A DNA stretch of 64,000 nt from Prevotella sp. (GTDB taxonomy: Bacteria; Bacteroidota; Bacteroidia; Bacteroidales; Bacteroidaceae): assembly GCA_017442825.1 (NCBI GenBank), contig JAFRYZ010000010.1:62001-126000 (forward strand), written 5' to 3'. How positions within the stretch are numbered: position 1 is the stretch's first letter; each line of letters opens with the position of its first letter. Shown here piece by piece: positions 1 to 9,867 of this stretch. The position numbers and the translations under genes are program-made. The notes beneath the pieces are model-generated. The model made no database searches, had not been told where the DNA came from, and saw only the letters and a list, made by a program, of their open reading frames with translations.

Positions 1-1651
1 CAATCGTTTCGGTAAGCTTGCCAAGGATATGCTCACGCCCAGCCTTTGCCTGCATCAGAGCCTTCTCCAGAATCTCGAAAGAGAGGCCGTCGCACTTGAT
101 GTCCATCTGTGTAGCCGTCAGACCATCCTTCGTACCTGTGGTCTTGAAGTCCATATCGCCCAAGTGATCCTCGTCGCCAAGGATGTCGGAGAGGACTGCA
201 TATTTTTCTTCTCCAGGATTCTTAATCAGACCCATTGCAATACCGCTGACAGGTTTCTTCATCGGAACACCGGCATCCATGAGTGCCAGCGTGCCGGCGC
301 AGACCGTTGCCATAGACGAAGAACCATTGGACTCCAGAATCTGGCTGACCAGACGAACGGTATAGGGGAAGTCCTCAGGAATCTGACCCTTCAGTGCACG
401 CCAAGCCAAGTGACCGTGACCAATCTCACGGCGACCGACGCCACGCTGTGCCTTTGCCTCACCCGTACAGAACGGAGGGAAGTTATAGTGAAGCAGGAAC
501 TTCATGTAACCACGATCCAACACGTCGTCAACGAGTTTCTCGTCGAGTTTCGTACCCAACGTACAGGTTGAGAGCGACTGTGTCTCACCACGAGTGAAGA
601 TACTGCTTCCATGAGGCATGGGCAGCGGAGAGACCTCGCACCAGATAGGACGAATCTCGTCGGTCTTACGACCGTCGAGACGAATGCCTTCGTCAAGGAT
701 ACAACGGCGCATAGCGTCGCGCTCAACATCGTGATAGTAACGAGCCGCCAGCGTGTGCTTCTCTTCCAACTCGTCTTCGCTGAGGTCGGTATGAGCAGCA
801 TCGTAAGCTTCGATGAAATCATTCAGAATCTTCTCGAATGCCTCAGCACGGGCATGCTTCTCCAGCGCCTGCTTGGTGACGTTGTAAGCCGGCTCATAGC
901 ACTCCTTCTGGATTTGCTCGCGCAGTTCCTCATCGTTCACCTCATGGTCGTATTCACGTTTTACGTCAACACCCAGTTCTTTAGACAGCGCCGTCTGCAG
1001 TTCGCACATCGGTTTGATGGCATCCATAGCAGCCTTGAGCGCACCGAGCAGATCCTGCTCGGAAACCTCGTCCATCTCACCTTCCACCATCATGATGTTT
1101 TCGGCAGAAGCGCCCACCATAATGTCCATGTCGGCCTCCTTCATCTGTTCGTAAGTCGGGTCAATGACATATTCGCCGTTGACACGAGCAACACGGACTT
1201 CTGAAATCGGACACTCGAAAGGAATATCTGAACAAGCCAAGGCAGCAGAAGCAGCGAAGCCTGCAAGGGCATCGGGCTGATCTACGCCATCGGCAGAAAG
1301 AAGCATGATATTAACAAACACCTCAGCATGGTAGTTGCTGGGGAATAGCGGACGGAGCACACGGTCAACCAGACGAGAAGTAAGAATCTCGTTGTCGCCG
1401 GGCTTACCTTCGCGCTTGGTGAAGCCGCCTGGGAATCGCCCTGCAGCAGCATACTGTTCGCGATAATCAACCTGCAGCGGCATAAAATCAGTACCCGGTA
1501 CTGCATCCTTAGCAGCACAAACCGTTGCGAGCAGAACCGTGTTACCCATACGAAGAGTAACAGAACCATCGGCCTGTTTTGCAACTTTTCCTGTTTCAAT
1601 TGTGATGGTTCTTCCATCAGGCAACTGAACACTTTTCGTAATTACGTTCAT
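1..1651 (-). CDS. pnp: Polyribonucleotide nucleotidyltransferase (PNPase), 3' end beyond window
   Basis: Phosphorolytic 3'-5' exoribonuclease of mRNA turnover; works in the cytoplasm as a trimer. Reading the minus strand from the ATG at 1651 gives about 550 codons with no stop before the window edge. The product starts [20 protein letters not shown] and runs through the first RNase PH domain, the helical linker and much of the second RNase PH domain ([38 protein letters not shown]). The KH and S1 domains should lie off the left edge. A Bacteroidetes -7 box sits 47 bases upstream. Identification is by family signature and near certain; only the 3' end is unseen. Confidence 0.96.
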
Positions 1652-1697
1652 CTAAAAAATCTTATTGTTTTATCTAACATCTAAAAATAAAATCGCG

Positions 1698-1705
1698 CAA
1701 AGATA
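1698..1705 (-). promoter_or_regulatory. -7 box TATCTTTG for pnp
   Basis: The minus strand reads TATCTTTG, matching TAnnTTTG. The -33 element is poor: CAAA (TTTG on the minus strand) occurs at 1722-1725, only 16 bases away instead of 19. Confidence 0.5.
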
Positions 1706-1793
1706 GTGCTTTTCCAGCAAACAAACGAATATACACGGGTTATTTTTCGTTTTTTATGAATTTCCACCGCCATCATCATTTAGCGAAGTGCCA

Positions 1794-3200
1794 CTATTTC
1801 CTGCTTATTTTCTTGCCGTTATGGACATAAATGCCTTTCCGTATCTGGCTACTTGAGATATTTCCGTCGGCTATTTTCCTTCCGCCAAGGTCGAACCAAG
1901 CATTACCATATACTGAGTGCTGGTTGCTGGCCTTATCTTCGTTTACATCATCTGATAAAAACGAAGAACGTAAGTCTGTCGTAAGGTCTTCGTCAAGATT
2001 ATCAACTTGATACCCCAGTTCTTCCATCTCCAACGAAGCCCAGACGAAAGGACCGATGCCCTTGGGATCGTTGTCACGAACGTTCTCACTCATGTAATAT
2101 TCAAACGAACCGTCACGGTTGGGTTTGTTTTCCGGTCCCAAGCCTGATACCTCACAACATTTGGTCAGCGAAATAGTGTTGTTTGTATTCTTCTTTACAA
2201 ACTCCTTGACAATACCTCGGTAGGCTTTAATGCCAGCCTGCTGGTAGGAAGCATCCAGATAGCCCATGCGGAATCCCTTCAGCAGACAATAGGCAAACAT
2301 GGAGGAGCAAGTGGCTTCGAGATAGTTCCTGTCATCAACAACATCCAACACGTCGAACCACACGCCACTCGTCTCATCCTGGTATTTAACCACCGATGCC
2401 ATCACATGTTGGAAAACTTCCACAATCTCCTGCCTGCGGGTATAATCTTCGGGAAGAGCATCCAAGACCTCCACCAACGCCATTGCATACCAACCGAGCG
2501 CACGCCCCCAAGTATGCTGACTTTGTCCTGTAACCTCGTCAGCCCAGAAAATCTTCGCTTCGCTCCAAGCATGTTTCCACAAGTCTGTTGCTGCATCATA
2601 CGTTTTCTTGTCCGTCGTCGTCATCTGGTTGACGGCATCATCGTAGATGTCGGTTTCCTTACCGGGTTTCAACAAGGGAGCAGCAAGGGTGTAGAACGGC
2701 ATCCCCATAAAAACGCCGTCAAGCCACACCTGGTTAGCATAGATGGCTTTATGCCACCATACACCGTTAGTTGTACGCGGTTGATCTTCCAACTGTGAGA
2801 AGAGTGTGTTCAGCGCCAACAACTCCTTGTTGGCTGGAAAATTCTGGTAGTAGCGTAACAAGAAGTGAGCAGGACGCACATTGTCCAGATTATAGTCGCT
2901 AATCTTGTAATTGGTAATTTTCCCATCAGAAGCAATCATCTTAGCAGGATATTCCTTCAGGTAGTTGAGCACTGCAACACTCTTATATTTCAGATAGACG
3001 TCGAGCATCGCGTCCAGTTCTATACCCACCTGATAGCTCCATTGCGCACCCCACGGGGAGAAGTTCAGGTTATAGGGATGAGCTGTTCGCTTCATTTCTG
3101 ATGCCACCATCCACTCACTATAGTGCGTATATTCTTGTGCCGTCGACATATTCCACGACAACAACAATAAGGAAACGATTAACAGAGCCCTTCTTTTCAT
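1794..3200 (-). CDS. Secreted GH105/GH88-type unsaturated glucuronyl/galacturonyl hydrolase
   Basis: Predicted to remove the unsaturated uronic acid left at the non-reducing end of oligosaccharides by pectate or rhamnogalacturonan lyases (YteR/YesR family). The 468-residue product has a signal peptide (residues 1-21, ending MSTAQ) and the alpha/alpha-barrel signature of the family: the NQVWLDGVFMGMPFY block around Asp161, an upstream Asp in DYNLDNVRP (about 106) and HTWGRALGWYAMALVE. Length is usual for secreted GH105 members. It stands alone between pnp and the B12 genes, but a PL1 lyase lies 10 kb away and could make its substrate. Exact substrate (pectin, rhamnogalacturonan, other uronides) cannot be read from sequence. 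Confidence 0.85.
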   Translation of the reverse strand: MKRRALLIVSLLLLSWNMSTAQEYTHYSEWMVASEMKRTAHPYNLNFSPWGAQWSYQVGIELDAMLDVYLKYKSVAVLNYLKEYPAKMIASDGKITNYKISDYNLDNVRPAHFLLRYYQNFPANKELLALNTLFSQLEDQPRTTNGVWWHKAIYANQVWLDGVFMGMPFYTLAAPLLKPGKETDIYDDAVNQMTTTDKKTYDAATDLWKHAWSEAKIFWADEVTGQSQHTWGRALGWYAMALVEVLDALPEDYTRRQEIVEVFQHVMASVVKYQDETSGVWFDVLDVVDDRNYLEATCSSMFAYCLLKGFRMGYLDASYQQAGIKAYRGIVKEFVKKNTNNTISLTKCCEVSGLGPENKPNRDGSFEYYMSENVRDNDPKGIGPFVWASLEMEELGYQVDNLDEDLTTDLRSSFLSDDVNEDKASNQHSVYGNAWFDLGGRKIADGNISSSQIRKGIYVHNGKKISRK

Positions 3201-3350
3201 TGCTTTAATAATTTATATTTTCATTTGTTTCAGTCACCTTTTCCTCCTGTTATGAGCAAAAAGTGGGCTAAAGGTAGTCCTTTTCCGTGAAAAACGCAAA
3301 GAAAACACTATTTTTTCTACATTTTCCTTTAACTTTTCCACACTTAGTGG

Positions 3351-3358
3351 TACTTTTG
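3351..3358 (+). promoter_or_regulatory. -7 box TACTTTTG for the reactivation-domain gene
   Basis: TACTTTTG matches TAnnTTTG and lies 62 bases before the GTG start at 3421. The -33 position reads TTTA, a 3/4 match. The predicted leader is about 55 bases. Confidence 0.5.
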
Positions 3359-3420
3359 CCAAACCAAAACGACAAAAGATACAGAAAAAACTAAAGAAAA
3401 CTCGTAAGCCCAACGCAAAG

Positions 3421-4089
3421 GTGACAACAAAAATACTGACATACAAGGATTTGAGCATCAATGTCTCCGAAATTTACGAGGCTATGGGCTACGTTGATGT
3501 TTTGCCCGACAAAAGGGTGACAACAGAAACGGAAAATATTATTACTGAAGTCAGTCAGTGGCTACGTCCGCAGTTCGCTTATATCGTTGTCAGCCAACTG
3601 CCGGCATTCCATTTGGGAACCATCATCGAAAAACAATTATGCGGTGCCGATGCTTATGCCATTTTCGTTGCAACTGCCGGAAGGGAGTTTGAAGATTTTC
3701 AGCAACGCTTGTCTCAGCAAGGCGACATGCTCAAAGTCTTCATCGTCAACACTTTAGGCAGTCTTATTGCTGAAAAGTGTGCCGACGAAATGGAACGAAT
3801 TCTTCAAGCTTCCATAGACAAATTAGGATGGAAACACACCAACCGGTTCAGTCCCGGCTATTGTGGTTGGTCTCTCACCGAGCAGCACGAACTCTTTTCC
3901 CTCTTTCCTACGCCCACCCCCTGCGGCATTTCCCTCACCGATAGTTCGCTGATGGTTCCCATCAAGTCTGTCAGCGGCATCATCGGAGTAGGCAAGTCCG
4001 TCAGCAAACAAAAATATTCCTGTGGGCGATGCGATTTTGATAAATGCTATAAGAAAAAAAAGACCCCCAAAAGACCCCCATCCCCCTAA
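3421..4089 (+). CDS. Stand-alone methionine synthase (B12-dependent) reactivation-domain protein
   Basis: In MetH this domain binds S-adenosylmethionine and remethylates the corrinoid after oxidation to cob(II)alamin. Here it is a free 222-residue protein. Evidence is the SAM-binding stretch RFSPGYCGW (142-150) in its usual context and a C-terminal Cys cluster CGRCDFDKC (201-209) common in stand-alone versions. The GTG start is the only reasonable one after the promoter. It converges on the corrinoid methyltransferase fusion (stop codons 37 bases apart), its obvious partner. Oddity: the last residues (KKKKTPKRPPSP) are encoded by A-rich and CCCCCT/GGGGG intergenic-type sequence, so the tail is probably a recent read-through extension. 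Confidence 0.8.
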   Translation: MTTKILTYKDLSINVSEIYEAMGYVDVLPDKRVTTETENIITEVSQWLRPQFAYIVVSQLPAFHLGTIIEKQLCGADAYAIFVATAGREFEDFQQRLSQQGDMLKVFIVNTLGSLIAEKCADEMERILQASIDKLGWKHTNRFSPGYCGWSLTEQHELFSLFPTPTPCGISLTDSSLMVPIKSVSGIIGVGKSVSKQKYSCGRCDFDKCYKKKKTPKRPPSP

Positions 4090-4095
4090 AGGGGG
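4082..4095. repeat. CCCCCT/AGGGGG palindromic block
   Basis: Near-palindrome of five C and five G around TAAA, spanning the stop of the upstream gene. Related blocks occur at 8327-8340, 13070-13085, 23325-23337, 60106-60126, and in looser form at 28668-28695 and 32465-32485. All lie at or just past gene 3' ends. It may act as a terminator stem, but no U-tract follows. Confidence 0.6.
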
Positions 4096-4126
4096 AGGAT
4101 GTTAAGGGAAGCTAACAAATTGTCAA

Positions 4127-7033
4127 TTATCTAATCGCGCAGCGCTTTGCTTGCAAAGAATTATCAATTGCCAACAGTTGTTTGGCAACAGCAACAGCAC
4201 TATTGGCATTGTCACTATAACCGTCGGCACCAATTTCATCGGCAAAAGCCTGACTGACCGGAGCACCACCCACCATCACCTTGACCGAATCGCGCAACCC
4301 TTCTTTCTTCAATGTTTCTACGACTTCCTTCATTTGTCCCATCGTTGTCGTCAGCAATGCACTCATACAGAGAATGTCGGGCTGATATTGCCGGATGGCA
4401 TCGATAAACTTTTCTACCGACACATCGATACCCACATTGATGACTTCAAAACCACACCCTTCTAACATAGAGGCCACCAGATTTTTTCCGATATCGTGCA
4501 AATCTCCTTTCACCGTTCCAATGACCACTTTTCCTAATGTGGTCATCTCTCCACCAGCCATCATCGGTTTCAACAACTCCAAAGCCCCCTTCATAGCCCT
4601 TCCAGCCATCAGCAACTGAGGAACGAAAGCCTTTCCGTCTTGAAACCTTTGTCCTATCTCGCCCATTGCCCTTATCATCTGGTCGTTGATAAGTTCATGA
4701 GGTGTACACCCTTCAGCAATAGCCGCGCGTGTAGCAGCCTCAGCATCATCACCATTTCCGGCAAGAATAGCATTGAAGAGGCGCTGCGAAGGAGAGGATG
4801 AAGAAGGCGAGGAGTGAGAAAAAGCGGAAGTTAGTTCTTTTATACTTTCATCAGCCTTCAGACTCACGAACTTTTCTTTTAAACGCTCACCCGTTTTTGG
4901 ACTCACAAACAATCCGCTTACCGGTTCTACCAGCTGCGCCATTTTCGCAATATGCTTGTCGGTTGTTCCACAACATCCCCCGACCACATTCAACACATGG
5001 TGTTCCACCAACGGCCATAAATCAGCCTGCAACTGTTCCGGAGACTTATCGTAGCCGCCTTTCCCATCTGGTTTTCCTGCATTCGGGTAACAGCTGATAC
5101 GCAAAGAGAAACGTTCAGCCAAGAGGTAGATGAAAGGAGTCATTCGAACGATGTCCGGTGTACAGTTGATTCCCACCGAGAAGAAATCTACCTGCAGATG
5201 TTCAGTAGTGACTTTTTCGATGAAATCGGGAATGTTCTGTCCAAACATGTTCATTCCCTCTGGTGTAGCAACATTGAAACTCAACATCAGCGGAACCTGC
5301 GTTTTTTTCTCTGCGAACACATTTTCAGCCGCCTCGATAGCCATTTCAGCGTTCATCGTATCGAAAATGGTTTCAATCAAAAGCGCATCCACCCCACCAT
5401 CGACAAGAGCCTCTATCTGTTCCTGATAAGCCTTGCGCAGCATCTCGTTGTCCAGCGTCGGTTCCCCGTCAGTCGAGAACGAGCAAGTTTTGTTTGTAGG
5501 TCCGATAGAACCCACCACAAACCGCGGTTTATTGGGATTCTTCCGCGAAAACTCGTCAGCCACCTCACGTGCAATCCTACAAGCCTCCAAGTTGATTTCC
5601 CTGATGTTCTCCTGCAAGCCGAAGTCTGCCATCGACACTCTTTGTGCGTTAAACGTATTCGTCTCTATGATGTCAGCCCCCGCCTCCATATATCGGCGGT
5701 GAACCTTCTTTACCACCTGCGGTTGAGTCAACGACAACACATCGTTGCAGCCCGCCAGACTACACGAATGAGCAGCAAAGCGCTTGCCACGAAAATCATT
5801 CTCCTGCAACCCATATTGCTGCAACATCGTACCCATTCCTCCATCAAGCACCAGTATGCGTTGCTCCGCCTGCTGCACCATCAACGAGTTGCGACTCTCC
5901 GCCTGCTGCACCATCTTATTCTTGCCAAAAGGCAACGGCATCGAGGGCGCCGTCTGATATTGCGCCACGATCTCCATAGCCTGCTCCACCTCCGTTTCGT
6001 TGTGGAAATCCATCTCGATGTGTACCCCCTCACCCCCGATGTTGTCGAGCAGTGGCCGCAGTTCGTCCAGCGTCACCCAGCAAGCCAACACACTCTTGCC
6101 GCCATCGAGAATGCTCCGATACAAGTCATACCATTTCGGGTTTCCCCCCTGCGGTTCGCCGACACCTGGTGTCCATTGTATGGCATTCAGTTCCTCAATC
6201 TCCAGCAATGCCGGCAGATGCCGAATGGCGCCCACCCCGTCGAGATGATATAGTGTATAGTCTATCTGCTGACACTGTTGCCGGATATAAGGTTGCACGA
6301 ATCGTCGGTAGTCCTCTTCGCTGATCATCGTTGAAATGTCGCATTGCAGTTTCGTCATCCTCCCCGGAGCCCAAGCCGAGAAATAGCAGAACGCCATTTC
6401 GTCACCCTCCCGGATGATGTCATAGAGTTCGTCGAAGACTTGAAAGTAGATATCGTTGATGCGTTGAACCTGTCGTTCAACCACCTCCGGCTGCATCACA
6501 GTATCGAGCAACACTTGGTCAGTACCTTTCAGCGACGCAAGCACATCAAGCCCCTCCATAAGATCGGGCATTCCCACATAGTAGTTCCCCTGTGCCAGCC
6601 GTTTACACTCCGTCAGCAACTGCTTGTGCAACAGCCAGTTGGGATGGTTGCGGTCGAAACATATGCCGTCATCCTTGAAGTTGGGGTCTGGGTGAATCCA
6701 GATGGTATCCTCACCACCCTCCAATCCGCTGCCGAGTATCGCCGCCAACGAACCCGGTCCCAGCTGGGTGTTGGCAACAGGCAGCATATCAGCTTTCAGA
6801 CAGCTGTGCGCCACATACCAGTTTAAGAATTGCGCACGCCAAACGGAATCGAACCATTTTTGGTTGAGGTTTTTGGGTGGCGGTGGTGCTTGAATGTCGG
6901 CATGAGGAGTCACCCCCTCCTGAAAATGCTCCCACATATTCAAGACGATTCCCCGATGGTTCCACCAATCCACATAGCGTCGTTTGGTTTCCTGTAGATT
7001 CTCTTTCCAAGTCTTCGTCAGTCCCTTCTTCAT
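4127..7033 (-). CDS. UroD-like methyltransferase / homocysteine S-methyltransferase / corrinoid-binding fusion protein
   Basis: A 968-residue three-module enzyme predicted to move a methyl group from an unknown donor via a bound corrinoid to homocysteine, giving methionine. Modules: UroD/MtaA-like barrel (about 1-365; YHLDGVGAIRHLP with His263, and Cys318 in VLACWVTLDE); homocysteine methyltransferase barrel as in MetH module 1 (about 385-710; Zn ligands Cys624 in GINCT and Cys687-Cys688 in GGCCGT); Ser-rich linker (about 735-750); B12 cap helices and Rossmann domain (about 750-955; GDLHDIG with the cobalt-ligand His846). There is no pterin-binding module and no reactivation domain; the latter is the convergent neighbour. 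ATG 7033 (MKKGLTKTW) is preferred over 7069, which would start upstream of the likely -7 box at 7059-7066. Donor unknown. Confidence 0.85.
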   Translation of the reverse strand: MKKGLTKTWKENLQETKRRYVDWWNHRGIVLNMWEHFQEGVTPHADIQAPPPPKNLNQKWFDSVWRAQFLNWYVAHSCLKADMLPVANTQLGPGSLAAILGSGLEGGEDTIWIHPDPNFKDDGICFDRNHPNWLLHKQLLTECKRLAQGNYYVGMPDLMEGLDVLASLKGTDQVLLDTVMQPEVVERQVQRINDIYFQVFDELYDIIREGDEMAFCYFSAWAPGRMTKLQCDISTMISEEDYRRFVQPYIRQQCQQIDYTLYHLDGVGAIRHLPALLEIEELNAIQWTPGVGEPQGGNPKWYDLYRSILDGGKSVLACWVTLDELRPLLDNIGGEGVHIEMDFHNETEVEQAMEIVAQYQTAPSMPLPFGKNKMVQQAESRNSLMVQQAEQRILVLDGGMGTMLQQYGLQENDFRGKRFAAHSCSLAGCNDVLSLTQPQVVKKVHRRYMEAGADIIETNTFNAQRVSMADFGLQENIREINLEACRIAREVADEFSRKNPNKPRFVVGSIGPTNKTCSFSTDGEPTLDNEMLRKAYQEQIEALVDGGVDALLIETIFDTMNAEMAIEAAENVFAEKKTQVPLMLSFNVATPEGMNMFGQNIPDFIEKVTTEHLQVDFFSVGINCTPDIVRMTPFIYLLAERFSLRISCYPNAGKPDGKGGYDKSPEQLQADLWPLVEHHVLNVVGGCCGTTDKHIAKMAQLVEPVSGLFVSPKTGERLKEKFVSLKADESIKELTSAFSHSSPSSSSPSQRLFNAILAGNGDDAEAATRAAIAEGCTPHELINDQMIRAMGEIGQRFQDGKAFVPQLLMAGRAMKGALELLKPMMAGGEMTTLGKVVIGTVKGDLHDIGKNLVASMLEGCGFEVINVGIDVSVEKFIDAIRQYQPDILCMSALLTTTMGQMKEVVETLKKEGLRDSVKVMVGGAPVSQAFADEIGADGYSDNANSAVAVAKQLLAIDNSLQAKRCAIR
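4137..4160. repeat. 24-bp dispersed repeat, copy 1 (inverted copy at 48112-48135)
   Basis: The 24 bases beginning GCGCAGCGCTTTG match the reverse complement of 48112-48135 at 22 of 24 positions. The repeat can fold on its CTTTG/CAAAG arms. Here it supplies the last codons of the corrinoid fusion gene. Shorter relatives occur at 22749-22770, 33890-33944 and 46879-46912. Confidence 0.55.
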
Positions 7034-7058
7034 CTTTTCAGGTAGTTGGTTTGGGCAA

Positions 7059-7066
7059 CAAAAATA
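7059..7066 (-). promoter_or_regulatory. -7 box TATTTTTG for the corrinoid fusion gene
   Basis: The minus strand reads TATTTTTG, 26 bases before the ATG at 7033, and supports that start. No good -33 element is visible at the right distance. Confidence 0.45.
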
Positions 7067-7075
7067 CAAATATAT

Positions 7076-7106
7076 TTTGATATTCTACCTTTTTCAATTA
7101 CTTTTG
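7076..7106 (+). promoter_or_regulatory. Bacteroidetes promoter TTTG-N19-TACTTTTG
   Basis: TTTG at 7076-7079 and TACTTTTG at 7099-7106 with exactly 19 bases between. It drives the lipoprotein gene starting at 7130 and shows that an in-frame upstream start at 7046 cannot be used from this promoter. Confidence 0.8.
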
Positions 7107-7129
7107 CAGCTAAAATTAGCAAACAGTAT

Positions 7130-8311
7130 ATGAAGAAATCGTGTTTTTCAAGGTTATGCTGGACTGTTGCGGCTGTCGTTGCCGTCGTGAACTTGAGTTC
7201 CTGCAGCAAGGAGAAATTCCATGTTGAGGGCGACATCACCAACGCGAAAGACTCCGTGCTCTATTTCGAGCACAATGGTCTTGACGGTTTTGCCGTTGTC
7301 GATTCGGTAAAACTCGATGAAAGCGGTGCTTTCTCGTTCAGCGGCGATAAAGCCGACAATCCCGAATTCTATCGGTTGCGCATAGCAGGTCAGATCATCA
7401 ACATTGCCATCGACTCGACAGAGACCGTCGGCATCAAAGCCGCCTATCCCATGATGGCAACAGAATATACCGTCAGCGGTTCACCTGAAAACGAGAAGGT
7501 GAAAGAGCTTGCTCTCCGCCAGATCAGTCTGCAGACGAGTTGTCAGGCTGTTGCCAACAACCCGTCGCTGGGCATCGACTCCGTTGCCTCCGTCATCCAG
7601 AAGATGGTAAATGCCTACAAAGATGACGTGAAGCGCAACTACATCTTCAAGGAGCCCATGCGTGCATACGCCTATTTCGCCCTGTTCCAGTATATCACCG
7701 TCAACGGTGAGAGCACGTTGCTCTTCAATCCGCGCGAGAATGCCGACGACGTCAAGGCTTTTGCTGCTGTTGCCACCAGCTGGGACACCTTCTATCCCAA
7801 CTCCGAACGTGGTGAGAACCTGCACAATATCGCCCTGCAGGGAATGAAAGACCAGCGCATCATCCGCAACCAGCAACAAGGTGCTACGCTGAACATCGAT
7901 CCGTCGAAGGTGCACGAGTCGGGCGTCATCGAGCTGAACCTCCTCGACAACAAAGGCATCCGTCGCTCCCTGTCATCGCTGAAAGGCAAGGTGGTGCTGC
8001 TCGACTTCCATGTCTTCGCAGCCGAAGGTTCTGTTGAGCATATCATGGCACTGCGCGAACTCTACAACCGCTACCACGCTCAGGGCTTAGAGATCTACCA
8101 AGTCAGCCTCGACGAGAACGAGCACTTCTGGAAGACGCAGACAGAAGCCCTGCCTTGGATTTGCGTCTATGACAACACGGGTGTGAGCAATGCCTACATC
8201 GCTCCTGTGAGCGCTCCTCCCGTCATCTATCTTATCGACCGCAACAACAACATCGTGAAGAACCCATCACAAATTAAGGATATAGAAGCGGAAATCAAAG
8301 CGCTGCTTTGA
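7130..8311 (+). CDS. Thioredoxin-fold lipoprotein with DUF4369-like N-terminus, lacking CxxC
   Basis: A 393-residue envelope protein. It has a lipoprotein signal with lipobox LSSC (Cys25), a beta-rich DUF4369-type N-domain (FHVEGDITNAKDSVLYFEHN), a helical middle and a C-terminal AhpC/TSA-thioredoxin-like domain (about 280-393, LKGKVVLLDFHVFA). In redox-active relatives the strand is followed by WCxPC; here the same place reads HVFAAEGSVEH, with no cysteine. The protein is therefore probably not a disulfide oxidoreductase, though the fold seems intact (conserved cis-Pro region SAPPVIYLIDRNN). Start at ATG 7130 is set by the promoter and signal peptide. Role unknown; binding or structural function is an inference. 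Confidence 0.75.
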   Translation: MKKSCFSRLCWTVAAVVAVVNLSSCSKEKFHVEGDITNAKDSVLYFEHNGLDGFAVVDSVKLDESGAFSFSGDKADNPEFYRLRIAGQIINIAIDSTETVGIKAAYPMMATEYTVSGSPENEKVKELALRQISLQTSCQAVANNPSLGIDSVASVIQKMVNAYKDDVKRNYIFKEPMRAYAYFALFQYITVNGESTLLFNPRENADDVKAFAAVATSWDTFYPNSERGENLHNIALQGMKDQRIIRNQQQGATLNIDPSKVHESGVIELNLLDNKGIRRSLSSLKGKVVLLDFHVFAAEGSVEHIMALRELYNRYHAQGLEIYQVSLDENEHFWKTQTEALPWICVYDNTGVSNAYIAPVSAPPVIYLIDRNNNIVKNPSQIKDIEAEIKALL

Positions 8312-8326
8312 GAATAAAGCCCCCAA

Positions 8327-8340
8327 CCCCCTGAAGGGGG
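8327..8340. repeat. CCCCCT/AGGGGG palindromic block
   Basis: CCCCCTGAAGGGGG lies 16 bases after the lipoprotein stop codon and belongs to the same dispersed family as 4082-4095. Confidence 0.55.
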
Positions 8341-8354
8341 AGTCCCAGGGCTAC

Positions 8355-8420
8355 TAGGAAAGGCTGGGAATTCCTAGAAAGGCTAGAAAACCTAGAATGA
8401 CTAGAATTACTAGAAAGCCT
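8355..8420. repeat. CTAG-dense degenerate array, copy A
   Basis: About six CTAG tetramers spaced 8-10 bases apart in a (A/G)NCTAGAA(A/T)-like unit, followed by short CTTTTGAC-type repeats. It fills the gap before the esterase gene. Similar arrays lie at 9859-9957 and, in the other orientation, 60050-60104. Confidence 0.7.
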
Positions 8421-8460
8421 TTGACTTTTGACTTTTTGACTAAAAATAATATTGATGATG

Positions 8461-9279
8461 ATGAAAAAGACCATATCAACATTCGTCCTTGCGGCATTGG
8501 CAATGACAGCCGCAGCACAGAAAGTATTCGACAGTCCGCTCTATAGCGGCAAGGCTCCCCACAACAACGGCGACGATCAGGACACCGCCAAGGTGCGCGT
8601 CTATCTGCCCGACAGCAAGGTGGCAACAGGACGCGCCGTCGTCATCTGTCCTGGAGGTGGCTACGACCACTTGTCCATGCAGAAAGAAGGCTACGACTGG
8701 GGCGAGTTTCTGCAGAATCAAGGCATTGCCGCCATCGTTTTGAAATACCGCATGCCTCACGGCGACGTCGATGTTCCCGTGAGCGATGCCGAGAACGCCA
8801 TCAAGTTTGTGCGCCGCAACGCCTCCTCGTGGCATGTCAACATCAACAACGTCGGCATCATGGGCTTCTCTGCCGGCGGCCATCTTGCCTCCGTCATCGC
8901 CACCCGTTCCAAGGGCGATGCCAAGCCCGATTTCCAGATTCTCTTCTACCCCGTCATCACGATGATGGAAGGTTTCACCCACGAAGGCTCGCGCAAGAAT
9001 CTGCTGGGCAACAAGCCGTCGAAGCGCGAAGAGAAGAAATACAGCAGCGACATGAACGTGACACGCAACACGCCGCGTGCCTTCATAGCCCTGAGCGATG
9101 ACGACCGCAGCGTTCCTCCAGCCAATGGTGTGAACTACTACATGGAGCTCTATCGCAACGACGTTCCTGCCAGTCTCTATGTCTATCCTACCGGCGGCCA
9201 CGGCTGGGGTTCCAAAATGGGTTTCAAGCACCACCTGGAAATGCAACTGAACCTGCAGGCTTGGCTGAACAGCTTCTGA
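8461..9279 (+). CDS. Secreted alpha/beta-hydrolase esterase, acetyl-xylan-esterase-like
   Basis: Predicted carbohydrate acetyl or acyl esterase exported by a signal peptide (MKKTISTFVLAALAMTAAAQ). The 272-residue product has the oxyanion-loop motif CPGGGYDHL, nucleophile elbow GFSAGG (Ser137), an acidic residue in ALSDDDRSV and catalytic His247 in PTGGHGW, as in the BD-FAE/CE-type hydrolases often called endo-xylanase-associated esterases. Three consecutive in-frame ATGs (8455, 8458, 8461) and a TTG (8452) precede MKK, so the exact start is uncertain by up to three codons. Neighbouring polysaccharide lyases suggest action on decorated plant or algal polysaccharide. Confidence 0.75.
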   Translation: MKKTISTFVLAALAMTAAAQKVFDSPLYSGKAPHNNGDDQDTAKVRVYLPDSKVATGRAVVICPGGGYDHLSMQKEGYDWGEFLQNQGIAAIVLKYRMPHGDVDVPVSDAENAIKFVRRNASSWHVNINNVGIMGFSAGGHLASVIATRSKGDAKPDFQILFYPVITMMEGFTHEGSRKNLLGNKPSKREEKKYSSDMNVTRNTPRAFIALSDDDRSVPPANGVNYYMELYRNDVPASLYVYPTGGHGWGSKMGFKHHLEMQLNLQAWLNSF

Positions 9280-9309
9280 CAAAGTTTTTAGGGGAATCTT
9301 ATCAAGAAT

Positions 9310-9867
9310 ATGTCCGAACGTGTTCATCCATTAGCAAAGTTTAGTTTTTGTCCCGTTTGTGGCAGCAAGCTGTGGGTAGTCAACAACTTCAAGTCGAAGC
9401 GTTGCGAGTCTTGTGGTTTCGTTTATTACGGCAATCCCAGTGCTGCCAACGTAGCGTTGATATTAAACGAGCATGACGAGTTGTTGGTAGTCCGTCGCAA
9501 GCAAGAGCCGGCGAAGGGCACGCTCGACCTTCCTGGTGGTTTCACCGATATGGGTGAGACGGGTGAAGAAGGCGTCATCCGTGAAGTGCTTGAAGAGACC
9601 GGTCTGCATGTCACCCGTGCCGACTACCTGTTCAGCATCCCCAACCTCTACCGCTATAGCGATATGGACATCCACACCCTCGACATGTTTTTCCGTTGTT
9701 GCGTCAGCGACACCAGCTCCGCCACCGCTATGGACGATGCCGAAGAAGCCCTGTGGATACCCGTCAACGAACTTCATCCCGACGAGTTCGGTCTGCGTTC
9801 CGTCCGCGAAGGCCTCATCCGCTTTCTAGAACGGGAGAACGAGAGAGAGGAAGTAACTCCTAGATAG
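9310..9867 (+). CDS. Nudix hydrolase with N-terminal zinc ribbon
   Basis: Hydrolyses a nucleoside diphosphate linked to another moiety; the substrate is not readable. The 185-residue protein has a zinc ribbon (Cys14, Cys17, Cys32, Cys35) like NudC-type NADH pyrophosphatases, then a perfect Nudix box at 77-99 (GX5E, REVLEETGL). It lacks the extra N-terminal domain of full-length NudC. It starts 30 bases after the esterase and could be co-transcribed. The stop codon lies inside the first repeat of the following CTAG array. Confidence 0.88.
   Translation: MSERVHPLAKFSFCPVCGSKLWVVNNFKSKRCESCGFVYYGNPSAANVALILNEHDELLVVRRKQEPAKGTLDLPGGFTDMGETGEEGVIREVLEETGLHVTRADYLFSIPNLYRYSDMDIHTLDMFFRCCVSDTSSATAMDDAEEALWIPVNELHPDEFGLRSVREGLIRFLERENEREEVTPR

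Follow-up and report, generated by a model that had tools for sequence, protein, structure and literature searches.

A putative B12-dependent sugar O-demethylase fused to a homocysteine methyltransferase in Prevotella and related Bacteroidales

A 64,000-nucleotide stretch of a Prevotella sp. genome (assembly GCA_017442825.1, contig JAFRYZ010000010.1, positions 62,001 to 126,000; hereafter the window) encodes a 968-residue protein in which a UroD-type module, a homocysteine methyltransferase and a B12-binding part are fused, next to a free MetH-type reactivation domain. In our judgement this fusion probably (roughly 0.65) joins a corrinoid-dependent O-demethylase to a homocysteine methyltransferase and acts on a methylated sugar of plants, the likeliest being the 2-O-methyl-D-xylose of chain A of rhamnogalacturonan II (RG-II). 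The case is built on direct observations: the anatomy and motifs of the modules, the operon that surrounds the gene in its relatives, the co-occurrence of the parts across genomes, and a trio of GH141, GH31 and symporter genes in an RG-II-type locus of the same genome.

The features of the system in the window are:

4127 to 7033, minus strand: 968-residue fusion of UroD-type module, homocysteine methyltransferase, B12 cap and B12 domain (open reading frame, Pfam, motifs, relatives)
5939 to 7033, minus strand: UroD-type module, about residues 1-365, proposed methyl-ether demethylase (identities to relatives, superfamily bridge)
6239 to 6247, minus strand: H263-L-D265 of the UroD-type module, invariant in a 56-row alignment and aligned with the HxC zinc motif of MtaA-type proteins
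4931 to 5854, minus strand: homocysteine S-methyltransferase module (PF02574), GGCCG retained (Pfam, motif, module scoring)
4568 to 4786, minus strand: B12 cap (PF02607; Pfam)
4193 to 4534, minus strand: B12-binding domain (PF02310) with DLHDIG (Pfam, motif, module scoring)
3421 to 4089, plus strand: free MetH-type reactivation domain (PF02965) with R.SPGY and a C-terminal CxxCx4C, convergent with the fusion (Pfam 1.4e-15, motifs)

Anatomy of the fusion and its reactivation partner

The reading frame of the fusion starts with an ATG at 7033 and stops at 4127; an alternative TTG start at 7069 would give 980 residues, and the relatives begin within a few residues of the ATG. Pfam recognised S-methyl_trans (6.5e-85, residues 394-701), B12-binding_2 (5e-20, 750-822) and B12-binding (9.4e-30, 834-947), and found no pterin domain in the fusion at E 0.01. 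A reading made earlier from the letters of the window (the sequence-only reading) had described the same three modules in 968 residues, the missing pterin module and the free reactivation partner; Pfam, the motifs and, for the UroD part only, a bridge protein described below agree with it, and the presence of the fusion beside a free MetH-type reactivation domain is confirmed.

In a scan of contigs, 223 of 227 candidate stretches encoded a relative of the fusion. The best 80, ranked by their match to the full-length query, were retained and the other 143 left out, so that shorter forms could be missed among the latter. All 80 retained relatives carry the three modules in one frame and belong, by their record titles, mostly to Prevotella-type and other Bacteroidales of rumen or gut; given these relatives, the fusion is not a chance assembly. 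The motifs GGCCG (homocysteine module), D.HDIG (B12 domain) and YHLDG (UroD-type module) are each kept in all 85 three-module sequences, that of the window among them (82 distinct ones, as three records were met twice), and the second zinc-cysteine pattern of the homocysteine module, G[IVAL][NS]C, in 81 of the 85. The UroD-type module is the best conserved part, with 71-84% identity across the 80 relatives vs 50-63% for the homocysteine and 62-81% for the B12 module. Genome searches found it in 12 of 251 genomes of the family (4 of 30 genera), while a phylum-wide search matched 2 of 395 genomes, namely the window's own and one match over 47 positions only. Together with 11 loci from the genome search, three of them duplicates, and the window itself, the 80 contig-scan loci make 92 compared loci, of which 89 are distinct. 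A relative of the UroD-type module at 76% identity also lies in MT840006.1 (3612-4682), a 4.85-kb record from human faeces labelled Bacteriophage sp. that is probably a mislabelled bacterial contig.

That the N-terminal module belongs to the UroD superfamily is supported through a single intermediate, a Subdoligranulum protein that has 22% identity to the module over 241 residues (E 1e-12 pairwise, 1e-5 in the plasmid search) and itself matches URO-D (PF01208) at 1.2e-9. The direct match of the window module to the URO-D Pfam model has an E value of only 0.12; among 56 aligned members, four match at E ≤ 1, and no E value lies below 0.11. A PDB profile search with the module returned nothing credible, and hhalign gave a probability of 0.7% for its alignment with the MtaA-like protein encoded nearby in relatives. 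The sequence-only reading had likened the module to MtaA and MtbA, an analogy that survives at the level of the superfamily, by the bridge, and is otherwise weak: at the place of the HxC...C motif, whose residues we take to be the zinc ligands of MtaA-type proteins, the module has H263-L-D265 and no corresponding C-terminal cysteine. A search of the window module for E-X14-E-X20-H, a zinc motif of aromatic O-demethylases, found no match either. A Subdoligranulum plasmid (OY725838.1; L117:1337-12192) carries four URO-D-type genes along with a GH38 alpha-mannosidase, a solute-binding protein of sugar type and, judged by eye, two permease-like proteins; this is perhaps another sugar-linked methyltransferase system, in Bacillota.

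The free reactivation domain accompanies the fusion closely, being its convergent next gene in 37 loci. Among 47 such domains, R.SPGY is kept in 46 and the C-terminal CxxCx4C in 44. As the sequence-only reading had proposed to check, its co-occurrence with the UroD-type module was counted: all 12 genomes that hold the module also contain a short free reactivation domain, vs 19 of 239 genomes without the module (protein search, match at 1e-5; Fisher 1e-12, kinship ignored). These 19 genomes rule out a domain exclusive to the fusion system; 12 of them belong to one genus (g24), with the reactivation domain at 42-50% identity and no UroD-type module found, and there it may serve another corrinoid protein. 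The CxxCx4C and further cysteines of the free domain (44 of 47) could hold a metal or iron-sulfur site and aid electron delivery.

A putative sugar-degradation operon around the relatives of the fusion

Across the 89 distinct loci the recurrent neighbouring families are GH31 (50 loci), the reactivation domain (47), GH141 (45), a sodium:solute symporter (40) and an MtaA-like protein (39). These counts are lower bounds, as the choice of frames hid some genes, e.g., the reactivation gene of L075 (found by BLAST) and the BD-FAE-type esterase gene of the window. In the commonest arrangement GH141 is followed by GH31, the fusion and the symporter, while the opposite strand carries the MtaA-like and reactivation genes; adjacent same-strand pairs, the window left out, are GH141-GH31 in 40 cases, GH31-fusion in 31 and fusion-symporter in 26. 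At least one of GH141, GH31 and the symporter is in view in 45 of the 80 contig-scan loci, or in 49 when two RG-II markers are counted as well, a DUF5703/GH78 gene (c8) that adjoins the fusion in 8 of the 80 and a BT_1020-like gene (c16) that lies beyond it in 4.

The MtaA-like URO-D protein (L048:625-1638 and 38 other loci) has MtaA (4ay7, 1.9e-18) as its best PDB match and forms 34 adjacent pairs with the reactivation gene. It carries the HxC...C-type motifs HNCGN and SSGCD, and was not found in the window's genome, the assembly of which is incomplete. Where the homocysteine module is missing, this protein is possibly the acceptor methyltransferase.

With the operon GH31 of one genome (G036) as query, a GH31 of the operon type (≥ 67% identity; two frames in G008) turned up in the 12 family genomes that hold the UroD-type module and in no other of the 251, the next best GH31 being at 45% (Fisher 1e-20, kinship ignored). 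In 11 of these 12 genomes it adjoins the UroD gene, so that only the exception, the window's own genome, tests this link free of proximity. There, a GH141-GH31-symporter trio with about 61, 75 and 82% identity to the operon members lies on another contig (C20), surrounded by BT_1020-like, apiosidase, GH95, GH78, GH127 and BT_3657-like genes and a second GH141 protein, and we read this locus as one of RG-II type. Linkage to RG-II enzymes, the sign of RG-II utilisation that we looked for, is present in the operons of the relatives and at this trio; the window locus itself holds no GH141, GH31, symporter or other RG-II gene of that set.

GH141 is the member of the operon that points to a particular substrate. 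Its founding enzyme, BT_1002, frees 2-O-methyl-D-xylose-alpha-1,3-L-fucose from chain A of RG-II (PMC10154630), and the GH141 of the window's genome matches it at 6.2e-115. The two columns taken as the catalytic aspartates (numbering from PMC10154630, with an assumed offset of five residues) hold D in 46 of 48 rows and gaps in the other two. By a crude rule, a signal-like N-terminus was recognised in 33 of 46 GH141 frames and in 0 of 51 GH31 frames, and the latter enzyme is therefore probably cytoplasmic. The best NCBIfam model for the operon GH31 is the alpha-xylosidase PRK10658 (461-478 bits, below the cut-off of 606). Use of the disaccharide would call for just such a set, with GH141 secreted, an importer, an alpha-xylosidase-like enzyme in the cytoplasm and an enzyme for methyl transfer.

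A solved GH31, 5f7c, which we take to be BT_0339 of Bacteroides thetaiotaomicron, aligns with the operon GH31 at 1514 bits, about as near as its nearest relatives. BT_0339 is listed as an alpha-xylosidase (PMC10434189). In co-culture, four fucosidase genes of this species differed more than 2.8-fold, BT_0338 (GH141), BT_1002, BT_0984 and BT_4136 (PMC8264420); BT_1002 and BT_0984 are RG-II genes, and these data are a hint only. The species seems to carry the first two operon genes under adjacent numbers, BT_0338 and BT_0339, and from synteny we infer a UroD-B12 gene and a symporter after BT_0339. The 2-O-methylxylose-fucose bond is probably a linkage of RG-II that escapes this species. A 2025 paper states that B. 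thetaiotaomicron leaves one RG-II linkage unbroken and cleaves the rest (PMC12282258). The literature searched, to which most subscription papers did not belong, held no corrinoid or other demethylase of RG-II methyl sugars and no GH31 acting on them.

Proposed route and competing explanations

Scored alone, the homocysteine part is MetH-like (366 bits) and keeps the cysteines of a MetH-type zinc module, whereas the B12 part reaches 228 bits with MtgC-type corrinoid proteins vs 154 with MetH; the whole fusion gives 514.7 bits with the MetH model TIGR02082 (cut-off 1010.85). The module order of MetH (homocysteine, pterin, B12 cap, B12, activation) is not preserved, the pterin module being missing. 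Moreover, 7 of the 89 distinct loci lack the homocysteine module but keep UroD, B12 and the operon: in five of these the gene between GH31 and the symporter encodes a UroD-B12 protein of about 600 residues, and in two UroD (354 residues) and B12 (212 residues) are separate genes. The constant core of such loci consists of UroD, B12, GH31 and symporter, with methionine formation added or lost in some lineages. The sequence-only reading had let the UroD-type module take the place of the pterin module in a MetH, and this we reject, given a B12 part nearer to the MtgC type and a homocysteine module that is dispensable. In our reading, a methionine-forming domain was either added to a putative ether demethylase or dropped from it. 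Which form is older is not settled by the tree of 92 UroD-type modules (three duplicates included), as it is unrooted, needs three label changes for the presence of the homocysteine module and has an unsettled bootstrap; in the short forms the methyl acceptor may be MetH or the MtaA-like protein. The parts of a corrinoid-dependent O-demethylase are all present, i.e., a UroD-type methyltransferase (by the bridge), a methyltransferase-type corrinoid protein and an activase, the latter of MetH type and not Ram/RACE.

Methionine synthases elsewhere in the genomes were also considered, as the sequence-only reading had suggested. The assembly to which the window belongs (contig C23; 2.31 Mb, 79% complete) contains an ordinary full-length MetH (1232-residue frame), and no MetE was found in it. 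The fusion is therefore an addition in this genome. The ordinary MetH contains an in-frame 21-base tandem repeat of 5.9 copies (L002:2402-2526) between two PF02965 matches of its activation domain. In 10 of the 12 genomes with the UroD-type module there is a further PF02574 match in a MetH-sized frame of 916-1232 residues, of which only that of the window's genome was read; a further genome (G109, 88% complete) has one 310-residue homocysteine methyltransferase besides the fusion, and in G206 (estimated completeness 99%; its locus L106 duplicates L069) no MetE, no MetH besides the fusion and no other reactivation domain were found.

According to the proposed route, a secreted GH141, acting as described in the literature, would free 2-O-methylxylose-alpha-1,3-fucose, which the sodium symporter would take up. 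The cytoplasmic GH31 would cleave the disaccharide, before or after demethylation, and the UroD-type module would transfer the ether methyl to the cob(I)alamin carried by the B12 module and leave xylose. The homocysteine module would then accept the methyl group to form methionine, and the free domain would reactivate oxidised corrinoid with S-adenosylmethionine. Ether demethylation by such enzymes has a precedent, since UroD-family corrinoid enzymes cleave aromatic methyl ethers, some with and some without zinc (PMC13222342).

Several observations weigh against this route. The leaving group of an alkyl sugar ether is poorer than that of an aromatic ether, and we know of no corrinoid enzyme that acts on a sugar methyl ether. 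In 31 of the 80 contig-scan loci, some of them on contigs that end early, neither GH141, GH31 or the symporter nor an RG-II marker can be seen; of the 12 sequences that share the window's fork of the tree, 10 come from these loci. The residues that we take to form the xylose gate of YicI are not kept in the operon GH31 (HLDTGW in 52 of 53), so that its alpha-xylosidase specificity stays putative, and the solved structure nearest to it is catalogued as an alpha-glucosidase. The usual catalytic residues are kept (51-52 of 53), and for this reason the 2-O-methyl group may not fit the GH31 before demethylation. Finally, a BD-FAE-type gene of the feruloyl/acetyl-xylan esterase family at 8452-9279 of the window, and likewise in L008, would suit an aromatic donor.

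The same chemistry could be directed at another methyl sugar, e.g., the 2-O-methyl-L-fucose of RG-II chain B or the 4-O-methylglucuronic acid of xylan. The operon points to the disaccharide only via GH141, a family that also includes a xylanase, and GH31 is broad; the pairing of GH141 with an alpha-xylosidase-like GH31 and the position of the trio in an RG-II-type locus fit 2-O-methylxylose-fucose, and we consider a different sugar unlikely. Somewhat more doubtful still is a donor that is no sugar, either a methyl ether of an aromatic or some other small methylated molecule set free along with the sugars (feruloyl or syringyl groups, or methanol from pectin esters). Such a donor would be in line with MtvB, OdmB and VdmB, UroD-superfamily demethylases of methoxyaromatics (PMC13222342), and with the BD-FAE-type esterase gene, which lies near the fusion in L008 and L033 as well. 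However, the recurrent operon consists of sugar hydrolases and a symporter, the BD-FAE cluster was met in only 2 of 89 loci by clustering (a longer antisense frame hid the window copy), BD-FAE proteins need not free aromatics, and the other recurrent families among those scanned, which were not all families, are not of aromatic type.

A methionine synthase variant that still uses methyl-tetrahydrofolate, with the UroD-type module in the pterin role, would explain the MetH-like homocysteine and reactivation parts and the relative in which no other methionine synthase was found; given the lack of a pterin domain, the link to GH141, GH31 and the symporter, and the operons that persist without the homocysteine module, we regard it as very improbable. 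Least credible of all is a UroD-type module that is no methyltransferase, in a cluster using its B12 parts for regulation or scavenging: the module diverges strongly from every characterised UroD enzyme compared, yet in each locus inspected a B12 cap and B12 domain form part of the same chain or lie next to it, and the reactivation domain accompanies the module in all 12 genomes. The preferred reading thus remains the demethylation of 2-O-methyl-D-xylose.

The neighbours of the fusion in the window tell less about the donor. The DUF4369/thioredoxin gene, the fusion, the reactivation domain and polynucleotide phosphorylase (window 1-9867) recur together in L008 and L039, and the NUDIX and BD-FAE esterase genes recur also in L008, where an MtaA-like gene stands in the place of the window's GH88, which suggests loss or replacement. 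The sequence-only reading had looked for a non-folate donor from plant polysaccharide, an idea strengthened by the operon of the relatives, and had used the nearby pectin and alginate genes as its pointer. The latter was rejected as donor evidence, since the recurrent families of the window are DUF4369/thioredoxin, NUDIX, BD-FAE esterase and polynucleotide phosphorylase.

Known systems and significance

By published description, the proposed enzyme resembles MtvB, OdmB, VdmB and MtoB, UroD-superfamily methyltransferases that move an ether methyl to a corrinoid protein (PMC13222342). Their substrates are methoxyaromatics, and they work as separate proteins alongside an additional methyltransferase that serves as the acceptor component, whereas the modules discussed here are fused, lie in a context of sugar catabolism and include a homocysteine-binding acceptor. 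CmuA, likewise compared by description, joins a UroD methyltransferase and a corrinoid protein in one chain, as in the 600-residue relatives (PMC13222342), but its donor is a haloalkane (chloromethane) and it has neither a homocysteine domain nor a glycoside hydrolase operon. With MetH, of which split forms are known, e.g., in Phaeobacter inhibens (PMC5764234), the system shares the homocysteine module, B12 cap, B12 domain and MetH-type reactivation domain (free in the window); it differs by the lack of a pterin module and by a B12 part nearer to the MtgC type, in an organism that has a true MetH too. The core methionine synthases MesA-MesD also form methionine independently of folate, and MesA-C are thought to take the methyl group from a corrinoid protein (PMC7857596); in contrast to the fusion they are related to MetE, and the corrinoid proteins with which MesA-C are proposed to work belong to methanogenesis or the Wood-Ljungdahl pathway (PMC7857596). 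Type 1 mlp clusters of anaerobes combine UroD-superfamily proteins with a corrinoid protein and an activase (PMC10418091), and the MtaA-like neighbour of the fusion resembles the Mlps in its relation to MtaA; their activase is Ram/RACE and the substrates proposed for them are methylated sulfur or selenium compounds (PMC10418091).

Methylated sugars occur in several plant and algal polysaccharides. For their demethylation, only an oxidative route was found in the literature searched, a P450 of marine bacteria that strips the methyl ether of the algal sugar 6-O-methyl-D-galactose for use (PMC10033563). It is a monooxygenase and yields formaldehyde, whereas the route proposed for the fusion would be anaerobic and would save the methyl group.

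Taken as a whole, the sequence comparisons tip the balance slightly towards a wider proposal, in which anaerobic gut and rumen Bacteroidales would possess a B12-dependent O-demethylase of 2-O-methyl-D-xylose that, with GH31, finishes the RG-II disaccharide released by GH141, possibly the linkage that B. thetaiotaomicron reportedly leaves, and in which Prevotella would turn the methyl ether into the methyl group of methionine. The relative in which no other methionine synthase was found (G206) would in that case depend on the fusion or on external methionine. If true, the 2-O-methylxylose-fucose end of RG-II would have a candidate fate, and the operon would represent an oxygen-free demethylation of sugars that saves the methyl group and ties the breakdown of pectin to methionine and B12.

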